NCBI GenBank assembly: GCA_020621865.1
Contig: JAHRYW010000004.1
Location: 186,001-250,000 of the forward strand
Origin: Betaproteobacteria bacterium
GTDB taxonomy: Bacteria > Pseudomonadota > Gammaproteobacteria > Burkholderiales > Rhodocyclaceae
Direction of reading: 5' to 3'
Length of the DNA: 64,000 nucleotides
The translations under genes and the position numbers were made by a program. Numbering within the stretch: the stretch's first letter is position 1; every line of letters begins with the position of its first letter. Shown here piece after piece: positions 19,003-45,690 of this stretch. A model generated the notes under the pieces. That model had not been told where the DNA came from and searched no databases. It saw only the letters and a list, made by a program, of their open reading frames with translations.

Positions 19003-19052
19003 GCAAAACTGGCCACCACGGATATCCGACTCGATTCAAAAATCATCACAAT

Positions 19053-25967: not shown

Positions 25968-25981
25968 TTCGGATATCCGAC
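25968..25981. promoter_or_regulatory. Distal AauR-like operator upstream of aspA
   Basis: TTCGGATATCCGAC, a palindrome of the form TTCGG-N4-CCGAA with one mismatch. The form is that reported for the AauR regulator of acidic amino acid use in pseudomonads. Its centre is 31 bp from the second site. Confidence 0.65.
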
Positions 25982-25998
25982 AGCGCAGCGGCGCAATC

Positions 25999-26012
25999 AT
26001 CGGAAATCCGGC
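25999..26012. promoter_or_regulatory. Proximal AauR-like operator upstream of aspA
   Basis: ATCGGAAATCCGGC, CGG-N4-CCG core, centred 31 bp from the distal site. The same core and spacing recur upstream of gltI. Confidence 0.6.
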
Positions 26013-26076
26013 ATCCGGGCGCCGCGATTTTAAAAAAACTCCTTGAAAATCAAGACGCCTTAAAACCGTCGGCCCA

Positions 26077-26092
26077 TGGCACGGCCCATGCA
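26077..26092 (+). promoter_or_regulatory. Sigma-54 promoter of aspA-symporter operon
   Basis: TGGCACGGCCCATGCA: the -24 box TGGCACG, 4 bases, then ATGCA at -12. It matches TGGCACG-N4-TTGCW with one difference. It lies 58 bases before the ATG and about 72 bases after the proximal operator, with an AT-rich stretch (26029-26065) between them that could bend or bind IHF. Confidence 0.75.
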
Positions 26093-26150: not shown

Positions 26151-27575
<1,425 letters not shown>

Positions 27576-27616: not shown

Positions 27617-28921
27617 ATGAAAATGAACCGGTTAACCACCCAGATCGGCATCGCCATGCTGCTCGGCGTCATCGTCGGCTACCTCTGCAACACCCAGGCC
27701 GCCAGCCCGGCAGCCGCCAAGGAAATCGCCTCCTACTTCGGCATCCTGACCGACGTCTTCCTGCGCCTGATCAAGATGATCATCGCCCCGCTGGTTTTCG
27801 CCACCCTGGTCGCCGGCCTGGCCGGCATGGGTGACTCGAAGACGGTCGGCCGGATCGGCGCCAAGGCGCTCGGCTGGTTCGTCGGCGCCTCGTTCTGCTC
27901 GCTGCTGCTCGGCCTGGTCTTCGCCAACCTGCTCCAGCCGGGCGCCTCGCTCGCCGTGCCGCTGCCGGAGACGGCCGCCGGCCTCAACCTGAAGACCGGC
28001 GCGCTGAACCTCAAGGACTTCATCACCCACGTCTTCCCGAAGAACATCTTCGAGGCGATGGCGGCCAATGAAATCCTGCAGATCCTGGTCTTCGCCGTCT
28101 TCTTCGGCCTGGCGCTCGGCCATCTGCACAACCAGACGGCACGCAGCCTGGTGTGCACGATGGAGGAAGTCGTCCATGTCATGCTCAAGGTCACCGACTA
28201 CGTGATGCGCTTCGCCCCGATCGGCGTTTTCGGCGCCGTCGCCGGCATCATCACGACCAACGGCCTGGGCATGCTGACCGTCTTCGGCAAGCTGCTGATC
28301 AGCTTCTACATCGCGCTCGCCGCTCTGTGGTTAGTGCTGATCACTGCCGGCTACCTCGTGCTCGGCAAGGACATCTTCCGCCTGCTCAAGCTGGTCCGCA
28401 GCCCGATGCTGGTTGGTTTCTCGACCGCTTCCAGCGAATCGGTCTATCCGAAGCTGATGGAACAGCTGGAAAAGTTTGGCATCCGCAGCCGCGTCACCAG
28501 CTTCGTGCTGCCGCTCGGCTACTCGTTCAACCTCGACGGCTCGATGATCTACACCACCTTCGCCGCACTGTTCGTGGCCCAGGCCTACGGCATCGAACTA
28601 ACCCTGGGCACGCAGATCACCATGCTGCTGGTGCTGATGGTCTCGAGCAAGGGTATCGCCGGCGTGCCGCGCGCCTCGCTGGTCGTCGTCGCCGCCGTGC
28701 TGCCGATGTTCGGCCTGCCCGAAGCCGGCCTGCTGCTGGTGCTCGGCATCGACCACTTCCTCGACATGGGGCGCACGGTGACCAATGTGCTCGGCAACGC
28801 CATCGCCACCGCCGTCGTCGCCAAGTGGGAAAAGGCCATCGACCCGGTCGACGAAACGCTGGCCGAGCGTGACGACGCGCTGCCAGTCGCCGGCGAAGAC
28901 GGTGTGCCGGTCGCTGCTTGA
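27617..28921 (+). CDS. Dicarboxylate/amino acid:cation symporter (DAACS family, GltP/DctA-like)
   Basis: 434 residues, eight membrane helices and two re-entrant loops. Key motifs: FLRLIKMIIAPLVFATLVAGLAG, a serine-rich hairpin VGFSTASSESVYPKLMEQL, LPLGYSFNLDGSMIYTTFAALFVAQ, LLVLMVSSKGIAGVPRASLVVVAA and GIDHFLDMGRTVTNVLGNAIA, where the Asp and Asn positions bind substrate. The motif with Arg in the last helix is absent or unclear, so I cannot decide between C4-dicarboxylates and Glu/Asp. It lies 41 bases after aspA, so the two form an operon for aspartate uptake and breakdown. Confidence 0.92.
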   Translation: MKMNRLTTQIGIAMLLGVIVGYLCNTQAASPAAAKEIASYFGILTDVFLRLIKMIIAPLVFATLVAGLAGMGDSKTVGRIGAKALGWFVGASFCSLLLGLVFANLLQPGASLAVPLPETAAGLNLKTGALNLKDFITHVFPKNIFEAMAANEILQILVFAVFFGLALGHLHNQTARSLVCTMEEVVHVMLKVTDYVMRFAPIGVFGAVAGIITTNGLGMLTVFGKLLISFYIALAALWLVLITAGYLVLGKDIFRLLKLVRSPMLVGFSTASSESVYPKLMEQLEKFGIRSRVTSFVLPLGYSFNLDGSMIYTTFAALFVAQAYGIELTLGTQITMLLVLMVSSKGIAGVPRASLVVVAAVLPMFGLPEAGLLLVLGIDHFLDMGRTVTNVLGNAIATAVVAKWEKAIDPVDETLAERDDALPVAGEDGVPVAA

Positions 28922-29941: not shown

Positions 29942-29955
29942 ATCGAAAATCCGAT
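29942..29955. promoter_or_regulatory. Degenerate AauR-like operator upstream of ansB (distal)
   Basis: ATCGAAAATCCGAT: outer arms are palindromic (ATCG/CGAT); it differs from ATCGG-N4-CCGAT at one inner base. The second site follows 32 bp downstream. Confidence 0.45.
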
Positions 29956-29973: not shown

Positions 29974-29987
29974 CTCGACTTTCCGTC
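29974..29987. promoter_or_regulatory. Degenerate AauR-like operator upstream of ansB (proximal)
   Basis: CTCGACTTTCCGTC with CGA-N4-CCG core. Only half-conserved; included because its centre is 32 bp from the distal site, close to the 31 bp seen at aspA and gltI. Confidence 0.35.
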
Positions 29988-30021: not shown

Positions 30022-30036
30022 AAATCAATTACATAA
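30022..30036. promoter_or_regulatory. Possible IHF site between operators and sigma-54 promoter of ansB
   Basis: AATCAATTACATA resembles WATCAANNNNTTR with one mismatch, inside an AT-rich stretch (30004-30045). IHF bending between activator and promoter is usual for sigma-54 promoters. Confidence 0.35.
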
Positions 30037-30061: not shown

Positions 30062-30077
30062 TGGCACGCGACGTGCT
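30062..30077 (+). promoter_or_regulatory. Sigma-54 promoter of ansB
   Basis: TGGCACGCGACGTGCT: perfect -24 box TGGCACG, 4 bases, then GTGCT at -12. It lies 58 bases before the ATG at 30135, exactly the distance seen at aspA. Confidence 0.72.
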
Positions 30078-30083
30078 GATTAA

Positions 30084-31196
<1,113 letters not shown>

Positions 31197-38476: not shown

Positions 38477-39799
38477 TCAGATCAGCCCGTATTTCTTCAG
38501 CTTGTCGTACAGCGTCGTCCGCGCGACTTTCAGCGCCTCGCTGGTGCGCGCGATGTTGCCTTCCTGCAGCGTGAATTCGCGGGTGATCAGCAGACGCTCG
38601 TAGTTGTCGACGGCCTCGGTCAGCGATTGCGGGGTGTTGGCGGCCGGGCTGGCGACGGCGTCGAGGCCGATGCCGAGGGCGTGGCAGTCGGCGGCATTGC
38701 GCAGTTCGCGGATGTTGCCCGGCCAGTCCTGGGCCATCAGGCGGCGCAGGCAGTCCGAGGTCAGCGGCGGCGGCGGGCGGTTGTAGCGCTTGGCGGCCTG
38801 GAGCAGGAATTCGTCATAAAGGGCCGGGATGTCCTCGCGCCGTTCGCGCAGCGGCGGCAGTTCGATGCGCACGACGTTGAGCCGGTAGTAGAGGTCGGCG
38901 CGGAACTTGCCCTGCTCGGAGAGCAGTTTGAGATCGTCCTTGCTGGCGGCGACGACGCGGCACGACACGGGAATCCGCTGGTTGGAGCCGAGCCGTTCGA
39001 TGACCCGTTCCTGCAGCACGCGCAGCAGCTTGATCTGCATGGCCATCGGCATCGATTCGACTTCATCGAGGAACAGCGTGCCGCCGCTGGCGTATTCGAT
39101 CTTGCCGATGCGTCGTTTCTGCGCGCCGGTGAAGGCGCCCGGCTCATGGCCGAAGAGTTCGCTGTCGAGCAGGGTGTCGGCCATGCCGCCGCAGTTGATG
39201 GCGACGTAGTTATCCTGGCCGGGGTGCGACAGGTCGTGCAGGCAGCGGGCGACCATTTCCTTGCCGGTGCCGGTTTCGCCGAAGATCAGCACGTCGACGG
39301 CCGCGCCGGCGACGTCGAGGATCAATTGGCGGACCTTGGCCATCTGCGGCGAACGGCCGATCAGCCGCGATTCGAGGTCGTCGCGGTGGTCCAGCCGGCG
39401 GCGCAGGGCTTCGACTTCGAGGACCAGTTCGCGCTTTTCCAGCGCCCGGCGGACGACTTCGATCAGGTCGCCGGTCGAGAAGGGTTTCTGCATGAAATCG
39501 TAGGCGCCGCTGCGCATCGCCTCGACGGCCAGCGTGACGTCGCCGTGGCCGGTGATGATGATCACCGGCAGGTCGGCGTCGCGCTCGACGACCCAGCGCA
39601 AGAGCGCCATGCCATCGGCGCCAGGCAACCGCATGTCGGTGACGACGATGCCGGGGAAGCCGGCGGTCAGCCGACGCTGCGCCTCCTCGGCCGAGGCCAC
39701 GGCGTCGACCGCGATGCCGGCCAGTTGCATGGCCTGTTCGCAGCCGAGGCGGACGTTGGGATCATCTTCGACGAGCAGGACGGAAAGTTGGGGCTTCAT
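38477..39799 (-). CDS. Sigma-54-dependent response regulator, DctD/AauR-like
   Basis: 440 residues. Receiver (LSVLLVEDDPNVRLGCEQAM, GIVVTDMRLPGADGMAL with the phosphoacceptor Asp, ITGHGDV, FMQKPF), AAA+ domain (about 145-375; Walker A IFGETGTGKEMVAR, GAFTGAQ in the sigma-54 contact loop, Walker B GGTLFLDEVESMP, arginine region FRADLYYRL) and a Fis-type helix-turn-helix (EGNIARTSEALKVARTTLYDKLKKYGL). It activates sigma-54 promoters. Overlaps its kinase by 4 bases. Likely targets are the sigma-54 promoters at 26077, 30062 and 45557. The AauR role is inferred from context; DctD is the alternative. Confidence 0.92.
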   Translation of the reverse strand: MKPQLSVLLVEDDPNVRLGCEQAMQLAGIAVDAVASAEEAQRRLTAGFPGIVVTDMRLPGADGMALLRWVVERDADLPVIIITGHGDVTLAVEAMRSGAYDFMQKPFSTGDLIEVVRRALEKRELVLEVEALRRRLDHRDDLESRLIGRSPQMAKVRQLILDVAGAAVDVLIFGETGTGKEMVARCLHDLSHPGQDNYVAINCGGMADTLLDSELFGHEPGAFTGAQKRRIGKIEYASGGTLFLDEVESMPMAMQIKLLRVLQERVIERLGSNQRIPVSCRVVAASKDDLKLLSEQGKFRADLYYRLNVVRIELPPLRERREDIPALYDEFLLQAAKRYNRPPPPLTSDCLRRLMAQDWPGNIRELRNAADCHALGIGLDAVASPAANTPQSLTEAVDNYERLLITREFTLQEGNIARTSEALKVARTTLYDKLKKYGLI

Positions 39800-41715
39800 G
39801 GCTTGCCTTGTTCGGAATGGGTCGGCGGGACGGCCGGCAGCAGGATGACGAAACGCGCGCCGCCGCCGGGCGCCGGGCCGGCCAGCAGGTCGCCGCCGAA
39901 ATCGCGCAGGATGTCGCGCGAGATGGTCAGGCCAAGGCCGAGCCCTTCGCCCGGCTGTTTGGTGGTGAAAAACGGTTCGAAAAGATGTTCCAGCGCTGCC
40001 TCGGAAAATCCGCTGCCGGTGTCGCTGACGGCCAGCGCGACCTGGCCGGAACTATCGCTCTCGGCGGAGAAGCTCAGGCGGCGCTGCGGCGAATCGGCCA
40101 TCGCGTCGATGGCGTTGCCGATCAGATTGACCAGCACCTGCTGCAGGCGATTCTGGTCGCACCAGGCAATTTGCGAATTTGGCCCAAATTTCCGCTCGAC
40201 CGTAGCATTCAGCTTTTTCAGGCGGGCATCGAACAGGAACAGCGCCGCATCGACCGCCTGCGCCACATCGACCGGCGCCGGGATGGCCGGCGACTTGCGG
40301 GCAAAGGTTTTCAGCGGCGTGATGATGCCACCGGCCTGCTCGGCCAGTTGGCCGACGATGCCGAGGTTCTTTTCGGTGGTCGCCAGGTCGCCGCGGCGCA
40401 TGAACTCGACGGCATTGGCCGCCAGCGTGCGGATGGCGCCGAGCGGCTGGCTCAGCTCGTGGGTGATGCCGGTCGCCATCTGGCCGAGCACGGCCAGCTT
40501 GGCGGCCTGCACCAACTCGTCCTGGGCGGCGCGCAGGGTTTGTTCGGCGCGCTGGCGTTCGGCGACTTCGCGCTGCAGGCCAGTCACGGCCTCGGACAGA
40601 TCGGCGGTGCGCGCCTCGACCTTGCGTTCCAGCTCCTGGTTGGCCCGTTCGAGCATGGCGCGCGCCTCCTCGCGGCCGCGCGCCAGCCGGCGGCGCTGGC
40701 TGAGGAAGAGCAGCCAGAGCAGGAAGCAGCCGACGGCCGCGGCGGCCAGCGCGGCATGCGTCGCCGCCTGGACATTGACCGGCTTGAGGTCGGAGAAGAC
40801 GACGATGCGCCAGGCCGTGCCCGGCAGGTGGCGACTCAGCGCGAGATAGGACTTGGCGCCCTGCAAAGGACCGGGGTCGGGTTTCAGCTGGCGCGACAGG
40901 CGAACCACCGTGCCTTCCTGCGCCGCATCGATGGCGATGTCGAGTGAGGTGACGCCGAGCGGCTGGTCGGCGAACTGCTCGCGGCTGATGCGCGCCAATT
41001 CCTCCGGCGGCTTGGGCTGCAGCGTGGCGTAGCGCCATTCCGGTGGCGAGGCGAGCAGCACGATGCCGTTGGTGTCGACAATCAGGGCCGGCGCCTCCTG
41101 CGCCAGCCAGCGCCGCTCCAGCTCGTGCAGGCTGGACTTGACGACGGCGACGCCGATCACCTTCCAGTCCTGCTCCTCGTCGCGGATCGGCAGTGCGAAC
41201 AGATAGCCCGGTTCCTTGCGCACGTCGTCCACCGCGTAGTGCCGCCCCGGCGTGCCGGCGATGGCGCCGCGGATCAGCGGCATGTAGGAGAGGTCGGCGC
41301 CGAGCAGGTTCTTGGAGAAGATCCAGTCGCTGGACGCAACCACCCGGCCGGTGGTATCGACCACGAAAATGACCGGCCCGCCGAGGTGGTCGTTGAGTTT
41401 CTGCAAGAAGTGGTTGGCCGAGGCCTGCAGGATGTCCTGGCGCTCGCCCGGGTTGCGCAGCAGGGCCAGCACGTCGGGGTTCAGCTCGACGGCGCTGGGG
41501 ATGGCGGCGTGCCGCGTCACCTCGCTGTCGATGGCGGCGGCGAGCACATCGAGCTGGTGGCTGGCCTCGTCGCGCATCTGGTTGAAGCCGAGGTTCTGCG
41601 AGACCCGGTAGGCGAGCAGCGCAGTGACCAGCAGCAGGACCAGCATGGCAACCATGACCAGCGCGTGATGCGGCTTGGGCAGGCTGACCGGGACGGGCTG
41701 GCGGGTTTCGGACAT
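39796..41715 (-). CDS. Sensor histidine kinase, DctB/AauS-like
   Basis: About 639 residues from ATG 41715; a TTG at 41727 overlapping the marC stop is an alternative. Membrane helix LVMVAMLVLLLVTALLAYRV, large periplasmic double-PDC (Cache) sensor (about 40-300; VDTTGRVVASSDWIFSKN, VDTNGIVLLASPPEWRYA), second helix, coiled coil, H box LGQMATGITHELSQPLGAIR (the DctB-type motif) and ATPase motifs (QVLVNLIGNAIDAM, VSDTGSGF, EGLGLGLTISRDIL). It senses dicarboxylate-like ligands and phosphorylates the regulator encoded next. Copy E of the dispersed element (40168-40209) is read in frame between H box and N box as LNATVERKFGPNSQIA. Confidence 0.92.
   Translation of the reverse strand: MSETRQPVPVSLPKPHHALVMVAMLVLLLVTALLAYRVSQNLGFNQMRDEASHQLDVLAAAIDSEVTRHAAIPSAVELNPDVLALLRNPGERQDILQASANHFLQKLNDHLGGPVIFVVDTTGRVVASSDWIFSKNLLGADLSYMPLIRGAIAGTPGRHYAVDDVRKEPGYLFALPIRDEEQDWKVIGVAVVKSSLHELERRWLAQEAPALIVDTNGIVLLASPPEWRYATLQPKPPEELARISREQFADQPLGVTSLDIAIDAAQEGTVVRLSRQLKPDPGPLQGAKSYLALSRHLPGTAWRIVVFSDLKPVNVQAATHAALAAAAVGCFLLWLLFLSQRRRLARGREEARAMLERANQELERKVEARTADLSEAVTGLQREVAERQRAEQTLRAAQDELVQAAKLAVLGQMATGITHELSQPLGAIRTLAANAVEFMRRGDLATTEKNLGIVGQLAEQAGGIITPLKTFARKSPAIPAPVDVAQAVDAALFLFDARLKKLNATVERKFGPNSQIAWCDQNRLQQVLVNLIGNAIDAMADSPQRRLSFSAESDSSGQVALAVSDTGSGFSEAALEHLFEPFFTTKQPGEGLGLGLTISRDILRDFGGDLLAGPAPGGGARFVILLPAVPPTHSEQGKP
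40168..40209 (-). repeat. Dispersed element copy E, inside the DctB/AauS-like kinase gene
   Basis: Minus strand: core ATGCTACGGTC, GAGCGG, AAATTTG, GGCC, AAATTCGCAAATT. Read in the sense frame as Asn-Ala-Thr-Val-Glu-Arg-Lys-Phe. Confidence 0.8.
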
Positions 41716-41723
41716 GCGTTGGC

Positions 41724-42368
41724 TCAAATCCCGGCCATGAAGCTGCGGATGCCCGAACCGACGAACTGCACGCCGATGCAGACAAGCAGGAAGCCGGTCA
41801 GCCGGGCGACGACGTTAAGCCCCTCGGCGCCGAGATGGCGCGATACCCAGCGCGCCGAATGCAGGACCAGCCAGATCAGCAGGCAGGTGATGGCAATGCT
41901 GGCCACGGTCGCCGCGTAGGCGGTCACCCGGCGCATGCCGCCGGACAACTCGGCGATTTCCGACGAAATACCGATCACCGTCGCCAGCGCCCCCGGCCCG
42001 GCGATGCCCGGCATGGCCAGCGGGAAGAAGGCGAAGCTGCCATTGCCGCCGGCCGGTGCGGTGTCGCCGCTGCCGAACAGCATCCGGTAGCCGATCAGCG
42101 CCACGGTCAGGCCGCCGGCAATGCGCAGGGCGCCGAAGGAAATGCCGAAAGCCTCCAGGATGAAGACCCCGGCGAACAATCCTACGGTGAGCAGCAAAAA
42201 ACCGTAAAAACAGGCGCGCCGCGCTTCCCGCGAACTGGCGCTGACCTCAAGATCAGTGGCCAGCGACAGGAAGACCGGGATCTTCGACAGGGGATTGGTG
42301 ATCGTCAGCAGGCTGACCAGCCCGCCGAGGAAGAAGCTGATCGCCAGCCGGTTCAGAGTATCCGCCAT
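41724..42368 (-). CDS. MarC-family integral membrane protein
   Basis: 214 residues, six membrane helices: FFLGGLVSLLTITNPLSKIPVF (the conserved N-P segment), GFLLLTVGLFAGVFILEAFGIS, LRIAGGLTVALIGYRML, a middle loop FFPLAMPGIAGPGALATVIG (the conserved P-x-x-x-P-x-x-x-G-P-G) and two more helices. The UPF0056/MarC family has no firmly established function; MarC is not a drug pump in E. coli. It overlaps gltL by ATGA and precedes the kinase gene, so it is fully inside the acidic-amino-acid operon, which suggests a transport-related role. Confidence 0.9.
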   Translation of the reverse strand: MADTLNRLAISFFLGGLVSLLTITNPLSKIPVFLSLATDLEVSASSREARRACFYGFLLLTVGLFAGVFILEAFGISFGALRIAGGLTVALIGYRMLFGSGDTAPAGGNGSFAFFPLAMPGIAGPGALATVIGISSEIAELSGGMRRVTAYAATVASIAITCLLIWLVLHSARWVSRHLGAEGLNVVARLTGFLLVCIGVQFVGSGIRSFMAGI

Positions 42369-44602: not shown

Positions 44603-45502
44603 TTACTCGAAAGCCTTGTCGTTCGGGGCCTTGAAGGCAGCCTTCATTTCATCGGACAGCGGCATGTTGAGATTCAGGCCCTTGGGCGGGATCGGACTCA
44701 GGAACCACTTGGCGTAGATCTTCTCGGCATCGCCTGAAGTCAGCGCCTTGGTCAGCGCCGCATCGACGACCTTCTTGAAGGCCGGATCATCCTTGCGCAG
44801 CATGCAGCCGTAGGCTTCCTTGGATTGGGCGGTGCCGGTGACGATCCAGTCGCCCGGCTTCCTGGCCTTGGCCATTTCGCCGTAGAGCAGTGCGTCGTCC
44901 ATCATGAAGGCGACAGCGCGGCCGGTTTCCAGGGTCAGGAAGGCTTCGCCGTGATCCTTGGCGGAGATGACGTTCATGCCCATCTTCTTGTCTTCGTTCA
45001 TCTTGCGCAGCAGGCGCTCGGAAGTGGTGCCGGCGGTGGTCACCACGTTCTTGCCAGCAAGATCAGGGAAGTCCTTGATGCCGGAAGTCGCCTTGGTCAT
45101 CAGCCGGGTGCCGATCACGAAAATCGTGGTCGAGAAACCGACCTGCTTCTGGCGTTCGAGATTGTTGGTCGTCGAGCCGCATTCGATATCGACCGTGCCG
45201 TTCTGGATCAGCGTGATGCGATTGGCCGAGGTGACCGGCATCAGGCGGGTGTCGATCTTGGCCAGCTTCAGTTCGTTCTTGATGCCATCGACGACCTTGA
45301 GCATCAGTTCGTGCGAATAGCCGATGACCTGCTGCTTGTCGTCGTAATACGAGAAGGGAATCGACGATTCGCGGTGACCCAGCGTGATGCTGCCGGTGTC
45401 CTTGATCTTCTTCAGGGTGGCGGATTCCTGGGCCTGGGCCGGCAGGGCGGCGGTAACGCTCAGGGTGGTGGCAAGTGCGGCAGCAAAGGCAAATCGGTTC
45501 AT
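44603..45502 (-). CDS. gltI: Glutamate/aspartate-binding periplasmic protein
   Basis: 299 residues. Signal peptide MNRFAFAAALATTLSVTAALPAQA, then the SBP family 3 domain: LKKIKDTGSITLGHRESSIPFSYYD in two parts, VIGYSHELMLKVVDGIKNEL, NRITLIQNGTVDIECGSTTNNLERQKQV (ligand Arg/Ser/Thr residues as in GltI), AVAFMMDDALLYGEMAKAR. It captures Glu/Asp for GltJKL. First gene of a seven-gene operon gltIJKL-marC-kinase-regulator. The sigma-54 promoter and paired operators lie directly upstream. Confidence 0.95.
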   Translation of the reverse strand: MNRFAFAAALATTLSVTAALPAQAQESATLKKIKDTGSITLGHRESSIPFSYYDDKQQVIGYSHELMLKVVDGIKNELKLAKIDTRLMPVTSANRITLIQNGTVDIECGSTTNNLERQKQVGFSTTIFVIGTRLMTKATSGIKDFPDLAGKNVVTTAGTTSERLLRKMNEDKKMGMNVISAKDHGEAFLTLETGRAVAFMMDDALLYGEMAKARKPGDWIVTGTAQSKEAYGCMLRKDDPAFKKVVDAALTKALTSGDAEKIYAKWFLSPIPPKGLNLNMPLSDEMKAAFKAPNDKAFE

Positions 45503-45556: not shown

Positions 45557-45572
45557 TGCAGCGAGCGTGCCA
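45557..45572 (-). promoter_or_regulatory. Sigma-54 promoter of the glt operon
   Basis: Minus strand TGGCACGCTCGCTGCA: perfect -24 box TGGCACG, 4 bases, then CTGCA at -12. It lies 54 bases before the gltI start codon. Confidence 0.78.
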
Positions 45573-45597: not shown

Positions 45598-45610
45598 CAA
45601 ACAACTGATT
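45598..45610 (-). promoter_or_regulatory. IHF-like site at the glt promoter
   Basis: Minus strand AATCAGTTGTTTG matches WATCARNNNNTTR, between the sigma-54 promoter and the operators. Position suits DNA bending for an enhancer-binding activator. Confidence 0.5.
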
Positions 45611-45645: not shown

Positions 45646-45659
45646 GTCGGATTTCCGTC
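45646..45659. promoter_or_regulatory. Proximal AauR-like operator upstream of gltI
   Basis: GTCGGATTTCCGTC, CGG-N4-CCG core, about 80 bases upstream of the -24 box. Confidence 0.62.
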
Positions 45660-45676: not shown

Positions 45677-45690
45677 ATCGGAAATCCGAC
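45677..45690. promoter_or_regulatory. Distal AauR-like operator upstream of gltI
   Basis: ATCGGAAATCCGAC; centre 31 bp from the proximal site, the same spacing as at aspA. The inner ten bases are identical to the proximal aspA site. Confidence 0.65.

Follow-up and report, generated by a model that had tools for sequence, protein, structure and literature searches.

Gene and promoter layout of the locus

The window, by which we mean the whole 64,000-nucleotide stretch of betaproteobacterial DNA that was analysed, contains three genes whose upstream regions carry paired palindromes. The first, aspA, encodes aspartate ammonia-lyase (26151-27575, + strand; TIGR00839 above cut-off) and is followed by a gene for a DctA/GltP-type dicarboxylate or glutamate/aspartate symporter (27617-28921, + strand; under the curated cut-offs). 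The second, ansB, encodes a type II asparaginase (30135-31196, + strand; TIGR00520 above cut-off), and the third, gltI (aatJ), a glutamate/aspartate-binding protein (44603-45502, - strand; NF008063 above cut-off). Two genes on the - strand, located between ansB and gltI, encode an AauR-type enhancer-binding response regulator (38477-39799), with receiver, sigma54 AAA+ and Fis helix-turn-helix domains (PF00072, PF00158 and PF02954) and a GAFTGA motif visible in the alignment, and a sensor histidine kinase in the AauS position (39796-41727), which combines a dCache_1 domain with HATPase_c and whose gene overlaps that of the regulator by 4 bp.

At aspA, the distal operator TCGGATATCCGA (25969-25980, centre 25974.5) and the proximal operator TCGGAAATCCGG (26000-26011, centre 26005.5) are 31 bp apart, and the same distance separates the proximal and distal operators of gltI, which read ACGGAAATCCGA (45647-45658, centre 45652.5) and TCGGATTTCCGA (45678-45689, centre 45683.5) on the - strand. 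At ansB, both operators are degenerate and their separation is 32 bp, with TCGAAAATCCGA as the distal site (29943-29954, centre 29948.5) and TCGACTTTCCGT as the proximal one (29975-29986, centre 29980.5); none of the six operators is assigned a strand. All these centres and spacings had been given in an earlier reading of the sequence alone and are confirmed to the base, the palindromes having the form CGG-N4-CCG, although its description of the promoters as unlinked was overstated, all three being located inside 20 kb. Compared with the longer palindrome TTCGG-N4-CCGAA, the aspA and gltI sites contain the CGG-N4-CCG core, with the flanking T/A at most ends, and the ansB sites are degenerate. 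TGGCAC-type -24/-12 elements of the sigma54 class, assigned by the general sigma54 -24/-12 consensus, are present at all three promoters: TGGCACGGCCCATGCA at aspA (26077-26092, + strand), TGGCACGCGACGTGCT at ansB (30062-30077, + strand) and TGGCACGCTCGCTGCA at gltI (45557-45572, - strand).

The operator signal in the genome

The strong form of the pair, CGGANNTCCG-N14-26-CGGANNTCCG, is confined, within the 2.9-Mb genome to which the window belongs (assembly 75% complete), to the promoters of aspA and gltI, and the backwards control yields none. A pair profile, trained partly on the window's own pairs, gave three matches at E<=0.5 among the 150 of 3,370 first-look candidates that were scored, and these are aspA, gltI and ansB. 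Two bare CGGN4CCG motifs 5-35 bp apart occur 147 times in the same GC-rich genome versus 160 in the backwards control, which is chance level; single sites with up to two mismatches show no enrichment in the window (26 observed versus 40.6 expected); and, for CGGNNNTCCG...CGGANNNCCG across the genus, 45 of 60 genomes have a control count that equals or exceeds the signal. The signal is the combination of strong sites, spacing and position, and loose matches carry none. A lone near-perfect operator, ACGGATATCCGA, with one mismatch, is found at 19018-19029, between convergent genes and right before a terminator-like hairpin; among the sites within two mismatches listed for the window, it has no partner at 31-33 bp.

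Conservation of operator spacing

The spacing was compared across orthologous promoters from 80 gltI loci in species records, aspA and ansB loci of the family and genus, and extra loci obtained through pattern searches. After identical upstream stretches and those shorter than 260 bp had been dropped, 201 regions remained, including the window's three (gltI 100, ansB 51, aspA 50). A pair was called when two 12-mers, each scoring at least 7 of 10, together at least 15 and one of them at least 8, were 14-70 bp apart and located 90-260 bp before the gene. By this rule, 82 regions have a pair together with a -24/-12 element (gltI 41, aspA 29, ansB 12), 118 have no pair (gltI 59, ansB 39, aspA 20), and one aspA region (L192) has a 33-bp pair and no recognised -24; the identical rule applied to reversed sequences called a single pair, at 66 bp.

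Despite an allowed range of 14-70 bp, the spacing is 31-33 bp in 80 of the 82 promoters (31 bp in 12, 32 bp in 61, 33 bp in 7). In the other two (L232 and L244), the picked pairs are spaced 39 and 59 bp, and a 32-bp pair is present there as well; these two promoters are excluded from the 80 and were placed at the 32-bp pair when IHF distances were measured. Random spacing in orthologous promoters, which the sequence-only reading had named as fatal to its proposal that about three helical turns place two dimers on one DNA face, therefore did not occur. The three-turn, same-face layout itself is retained across orthologues and bacterial classes, with a spacer whose sequence is poorly conserved: gltI spacers of 32 bp are 36% identical versus 28% in shuffles, with 74-83% identity in the operator sites, and the aspA spacers of 32-bp pairs are 45% identical. 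The distinction between 31 and 32 bp fared differently. Spacings of 31, 32 and 33 bp occur in 1, 22 and 6 aspA promoters and in 11, 29 and 1 gltI promoters, respectively, and ansB pairs are at 32 bp; the only 31-bp aspA pair is the window's own, the other 28 being at 32 (22) or 33 bp (6). Because orthologues interconvert the two values, the contrast has no meaning, and a functional distinction between them was rejected.

Broader searches place these numbers in context. A strict pattern matched in 30 of 399 genomes order-wide and in 14 of 121 family-wide, with scattered spacings; genes were assigned only to the matches near gltI and to two further loci, L107 and L108, described below. A profile search of the genus returned 30 loci, 27 of them with a pair and a -24 element, all by aspA, gltI or ansB, which is not an independent test because pairs of this kind had gone into the profile and the search was restricted to 28-36 bp.

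An IHF-like site and whole-turn distances

Two features go beyond the earlier reading, an IHF-like site and a quantised promoter distance. A match to the IHF consensus WATCARNNNNTTR with at most one mismatch is present between the proximal operator and the -24 element in 61 of the 82 promoters, versus 5.1 in letter shuffles, and an exact match in 31, versus 0.18, with strand ties assigned to the + strand; in 21 promoters, even the best match has more than one mismatch. All 61 sites have one orientation and, measured from the start of the proximal operator, 60 of them begin at 47-50 bp and the remaining one at 61 bp. In the window, the site is exact at gltI (AATCAGTTGTTTG, 45598-45610, - strand) and has one mismatch at ansB (AATCAATTACATA, 30023-30035, + strand). 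At aspA, the position predicted by these distances is occupied by AATCAAGACGCCT (26048-26060, + strand), in which the 5' half matches the consensus and the TTR half does not (three mismatches, counted by eye), so that just the AATCAA of the site is kept there.

Because several aspA promoters have a poor 3' half, the conserved AATCAA element might be an intrinsically bent stretch or a site bound by a different factor, rather than an IHF site. We consider this improbable in view of the exact consensus matches at 31 of 82 promoters against 0.18 expected, and of the location of the element in the usual place for IHF, the interval between enhancer and sigma54 promoter, as in the CbrB promoters described in excerpts of PMC6296734. 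The genome contains a gene for IHF-beta (L305, above the cut-off of one model), and IHF-alpha is not among the three HU/IHF-family matches in this 75% complete assembly.

The distance from the IHF-like site to the -24 element falls into two classes, 28-29 bp in 22 promoters and 38-40 bp in 39, and therefore the distance from the proximal operator to the -24 element does so too: among 80 promoters it is 75-79 bp in 33, 85-89 bp in 46 and 101 bp in one, with none at 80-84 bp; in the window it ranges from 77 to 87 bp. At a period of 10.5 bp, the operator-promoter distance has R = 0.78, versus 0.16 for the -24-to-ATG distance, which varies from 54 to 98 bp with no phase; these values are descriptive and not a test, because the promoters are kin. 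Changes between the short and long classes number four on the gltI protein tree, three of them forced by well-supported branches, and two on a quick aspA tree, one of them forced, which indicates that several lineages altered the interval by about one turn. In L233 (ansB) and L265 (aatJ), it is the operator-to-IHF interval that is longer, by about 12 bp (60-61 bp versus 48-49 bp), and the IHF-to--24 interval stays at 40 bp; an extra turn can thus go into either of the two segments. All four combinations of the two intervals are found, with 47-50 or about 60 bp from operator to IHF-like site and 28-29 or 38-40 bp from there to the -24 element, the interval of about 60 bp (59-61) being that of P. 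aeruginosa aatJ, ansB of L233 and the TRAP gene of L108. On these distances, we lean towards the view that the AauR enhancer, IHF site and sigma54 promoter make up a rigid stereospecific unit that evolves by whole helical turns only.

The regulator linked to the pairs

The earlier suggestion that the pairs belong to an enhancer-binding protein (EBP) has gained support, as sigma54 elements are present at all three window promoters and, in orthologous loci, the gltI pair occurs solely together with a linked EBP gene. This was assessed in the gltI loci that extend about 10 kb downstream, 58 of the 78 species-record loci with enough upstream sequence (20 on short contigs were dropped), counting pairs of 30-34 bp with a -24 element and EBP genes inside the loci only. 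Both pair and EBP are present in 18 loci, neither in 38, the EBP alone in two and the pair alone in none (p = 4e-13, with kinship ignored). The two exceptions, Aquabacterium L062 and L065, have no recognised pair; what remains in each is a single good operator, followed at the usual distances by an exact IHF-like site and a -24 element, and the distal site has therefore probably degenerated. Three Dechloromonas loci (L012, L015 and L038) have a gltI 86-91% identical to the window's, yet no pair and no EBP within 10 kb, which looks like the loss (or late acquisition) of the entire control system within a close group.

In the window, the AauR/AauS-type genes are linked to gltI/aatJ, and the same holds for the P. 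aeruginosa locus L265, whose regulator is 57% identical to the window's. The regulator of the pairs is, on these grounds, most likely the linked AauR-type system at 38477-41727. It is very improbable that the pairs serve another sigma54 activator, such as NtrC or DctD proper, with the linked system being incidental. The promoter architecture is indeed common to EBPs, and the top NCBIfam match of the linked regulator is ntrC, but that match, at 385.3 bits, is below the equivalog cut-off of 558.6, and the pair is absent from all 38 gltI loci that lack a linked EBP and accompanied by one in all 18 loci that have it. Moreover, the operator motif is identical to the core of the published AauR consensus, TTCGG-N4-CCGAA, to which AauR of P. 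putida binds in footprints according to excerpts of PMC7962211 (and of PMC7386598 for the motif).

Two probable routes to ansB

The weaker ansB sites, from which the sequence-only reading had predicted weaker or later activation of asparaginase, are not peculiar to the window: the weakness of the sites stands and extends to the clade, with a summed score of 22.9 for ten ansB promoters (L232 and L244 excluded) versus 34.5 for aspA and 34.1 for gltI, on a profile that was made from aspA and gltI sites and favours those. The degenerate half-site, CGA for CGG, is present in eight of the 12 ansB operators at the distal position and in as many at the proximal one, the window's included, so the weakness appears mostly conserved, and decay of these sites was thought unlikely for the same reason. 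Four relatives (L225, L230, L232 and L233) have a consensus-like distal site. The 51 ansB regions divide into 12 that have a pair and a sigma54 element themselves, 32 located just 3' of gltI (on the same strand, with gaps of 38-288 bp) and seven with neither in the available sequence, no region having both. Since 24 of the 32 upstream gltI genes have a pair (seven do not, and one is unreadable), ansB would in most cases come under one regulator by two routes, either through its own pair or through its place behind a paired gltI.

Other promoters and other lineages

Two loci of the same genus as the window, found with the order-wide pattern, played no role in deriving the distance rule. In L107 (G218:C1, 1500-1625), a full module directly precedes gltP, with a 32-bp pair, 48 bp from operator to IHF-like site and 28 bp from there to the -24 element (total 76 bp); the gltP product is 87% identical to the window symporter, whose gene, located after aspA, has no module of its own that we could find. 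In L108 (G336:C112, 178-320), a full module precedes a TAXI-type TRAP solute-binding gene, with distances of 32, 59 and 28 bp (total 87 bp), that is, with an extra turn in the first segment and one turn less in the second. As both were chosen for 32-bp pairs, their pair spacing is no evidence, and their IHF and -24 distances are. The regulon seems to vary, with other members of the genus placing further transporters under it, and the TAXI TRAP gene suggests another, possibly related substrate. A TAXI TRAP gene is also present at the Skermanella EBP locus L269, where there is no pair.

A class-wide search for gltI at E<=1e-60 in 274 genomes matched just three, the window's own genome and two others from its order, and more distant lineages were sampled through plasmid records, which provided eight plasmid loci with a related EBP. 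One is a P. aeruginosa plasmid (L265; NZ_CP133752.1, pZYPA1927) with the whole aatJQMP-ggt-ansB-kinase-regulator locus. Its aatJ pair is spaced 32 bp, with 60 bp from operator to IHF-like site and 40 bp from there to the -24 element (total 100 bp); the sites, at -278 to -233, agree with the PAO1 positions given in excerpts of PMC7962211, and the -24/-12 element, at -145 to -131, is within a base of the PAO1 element given there. Two Azospirillum plasmids and one from Sinorhizobium have aspA pairs at 32, 32 and 33 bp, with aspA followed by the symporter gene and the EBP gene, and a kinase between annotated in two of the three records; the subsequent intervals at these three alphaproteobacterial promoters are 48-49 and 39 bp, one of the IHF-like sites having two mismatches. 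On an Agrobacterium plasmid (L270, upstream of 10640), two perfect TTCGGATTTCCGAA sites 31 bp apart stand before the gene of a substrate-binding protein, and no -24/-12 element was recognised there. In Vitreoscilla, one site was scored and a weaker second one, 32 bp further on, was recognised by eye; the Skermanella and Variovorax plasmid loci, of which 19 kb each were scanned, have no pair.

Least probable of all is that the spacing was inherited passively in orthologous DNA too young to have changed: the sample is mostly one family and the spacers are somewhat alike (gltI 36% and aspA 45% identity in 32-bp pairs, versus 28% in shuffled gltI), but their sequence has largely diverged at a length still of 31-33 bp, the -24-to-ATG distance of the same sample is unphased, and the same spacing is seen again at three promoters that are not orthologous, before gltP and the TRAP gene in the genus, and in alpha- and gammaproteobacteria.

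A proposed mechanism and its implications

Taken together, the sequence data make it highly probable that the pairs function as two-dimer enhancers for the AauR-type activator, driven by the kinase and assisted by IHF, at aspA, gltI and ansB. In this model, the membrane kinase (39796-41727) would sense acidic amino acids outside the cytoplasm and phosphorylate the sigma54 activator encoded at 38477-39799. Two of its dimers, bound at each pair on one DNA face and three helical turns apart, would favour cooperative binding and seed the AAA+ ring, and IHF, by bending the DNA at a constant distance 3' of the pair, could swing the ring onto the sigma54-RNA polymerase, with induction of the target gene as the expected effect. 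We propose that the shortness and bend of the loop restrict the parts to shifts by whole helical turns.

Bacterial enhancers are often called distance-tolerant. The present regulon suggests the opposite, as the sampled promoters space activator, bending protein and polymerase in whole turns. If the rigid unit is real, its history would amount to a natural insertion experiment on the phase dependence of an enhancer, carried out in alpha-, beta- and gammaproteobacteria. The promoters would also be a ready set of natural variants for gauging the effects of phase, site strength and IHF on sigma54 output, and the distances provide a sharper rule for predicting AauR targets.

Comparison with known systems

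The closest known counterpart is the AauS-AauR system of Pseudomonas (aatJQMP-ggt-ansB-aauSR), which resembles the present one in the domain order of the EBP, the TTCGG-N4-CCGAA core, the sigma54 promoter, the targets gltI/aatJ and ansB, the linkage to a transporter and the 32-bp pair at aatJ. It differs in that aspA is likely a target here as well, that ansB has its own weak pair, that the operator is 100 bp from the -24 element there and 77-87 bp in the window, and that the regulator is only 57% identical. In the open PMC literature, with the original P. putida AatJMQP footprint paper outside the scope, we found no description of whole-turn quantisation of the complete AauR module, and AauR and IHF came up together in one review, which mentions them apart in the portions available.

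The tandem NtrC enhancer at glnA also consists of two palindromes upstream of a sigma54 promoter, about three turns apart, although the motif differs. Excerpts of PMC7408454 place the glnA sites at about -90 and -140 and indicate that helical facing is perhaps less relevant there, with another two-site NtrC promoter being dependent on the face of the helix. At the CbrB promoters of P. putida (crcZ, crcY and PP2810), according to excerpts of PMC6296734, the subsites are on one DNA face, IHF is located between enhancer and sigma54 promoter and is required for activation, and spacing perhaps outweighs site quality. The AauR-type module shares with these promoters the one-face subsites and the IHF-like site before a sigma54 promoter; the CbrB promoters differ, in the same excerpts, in having three subsites that are not palindromic and lie 20-25 bp apart at variable spacing, and a different EBP. 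Helically phased tandem EBP sites with IHF before a sigma54 promoter are thus already known, and the regulon described here is a further case.
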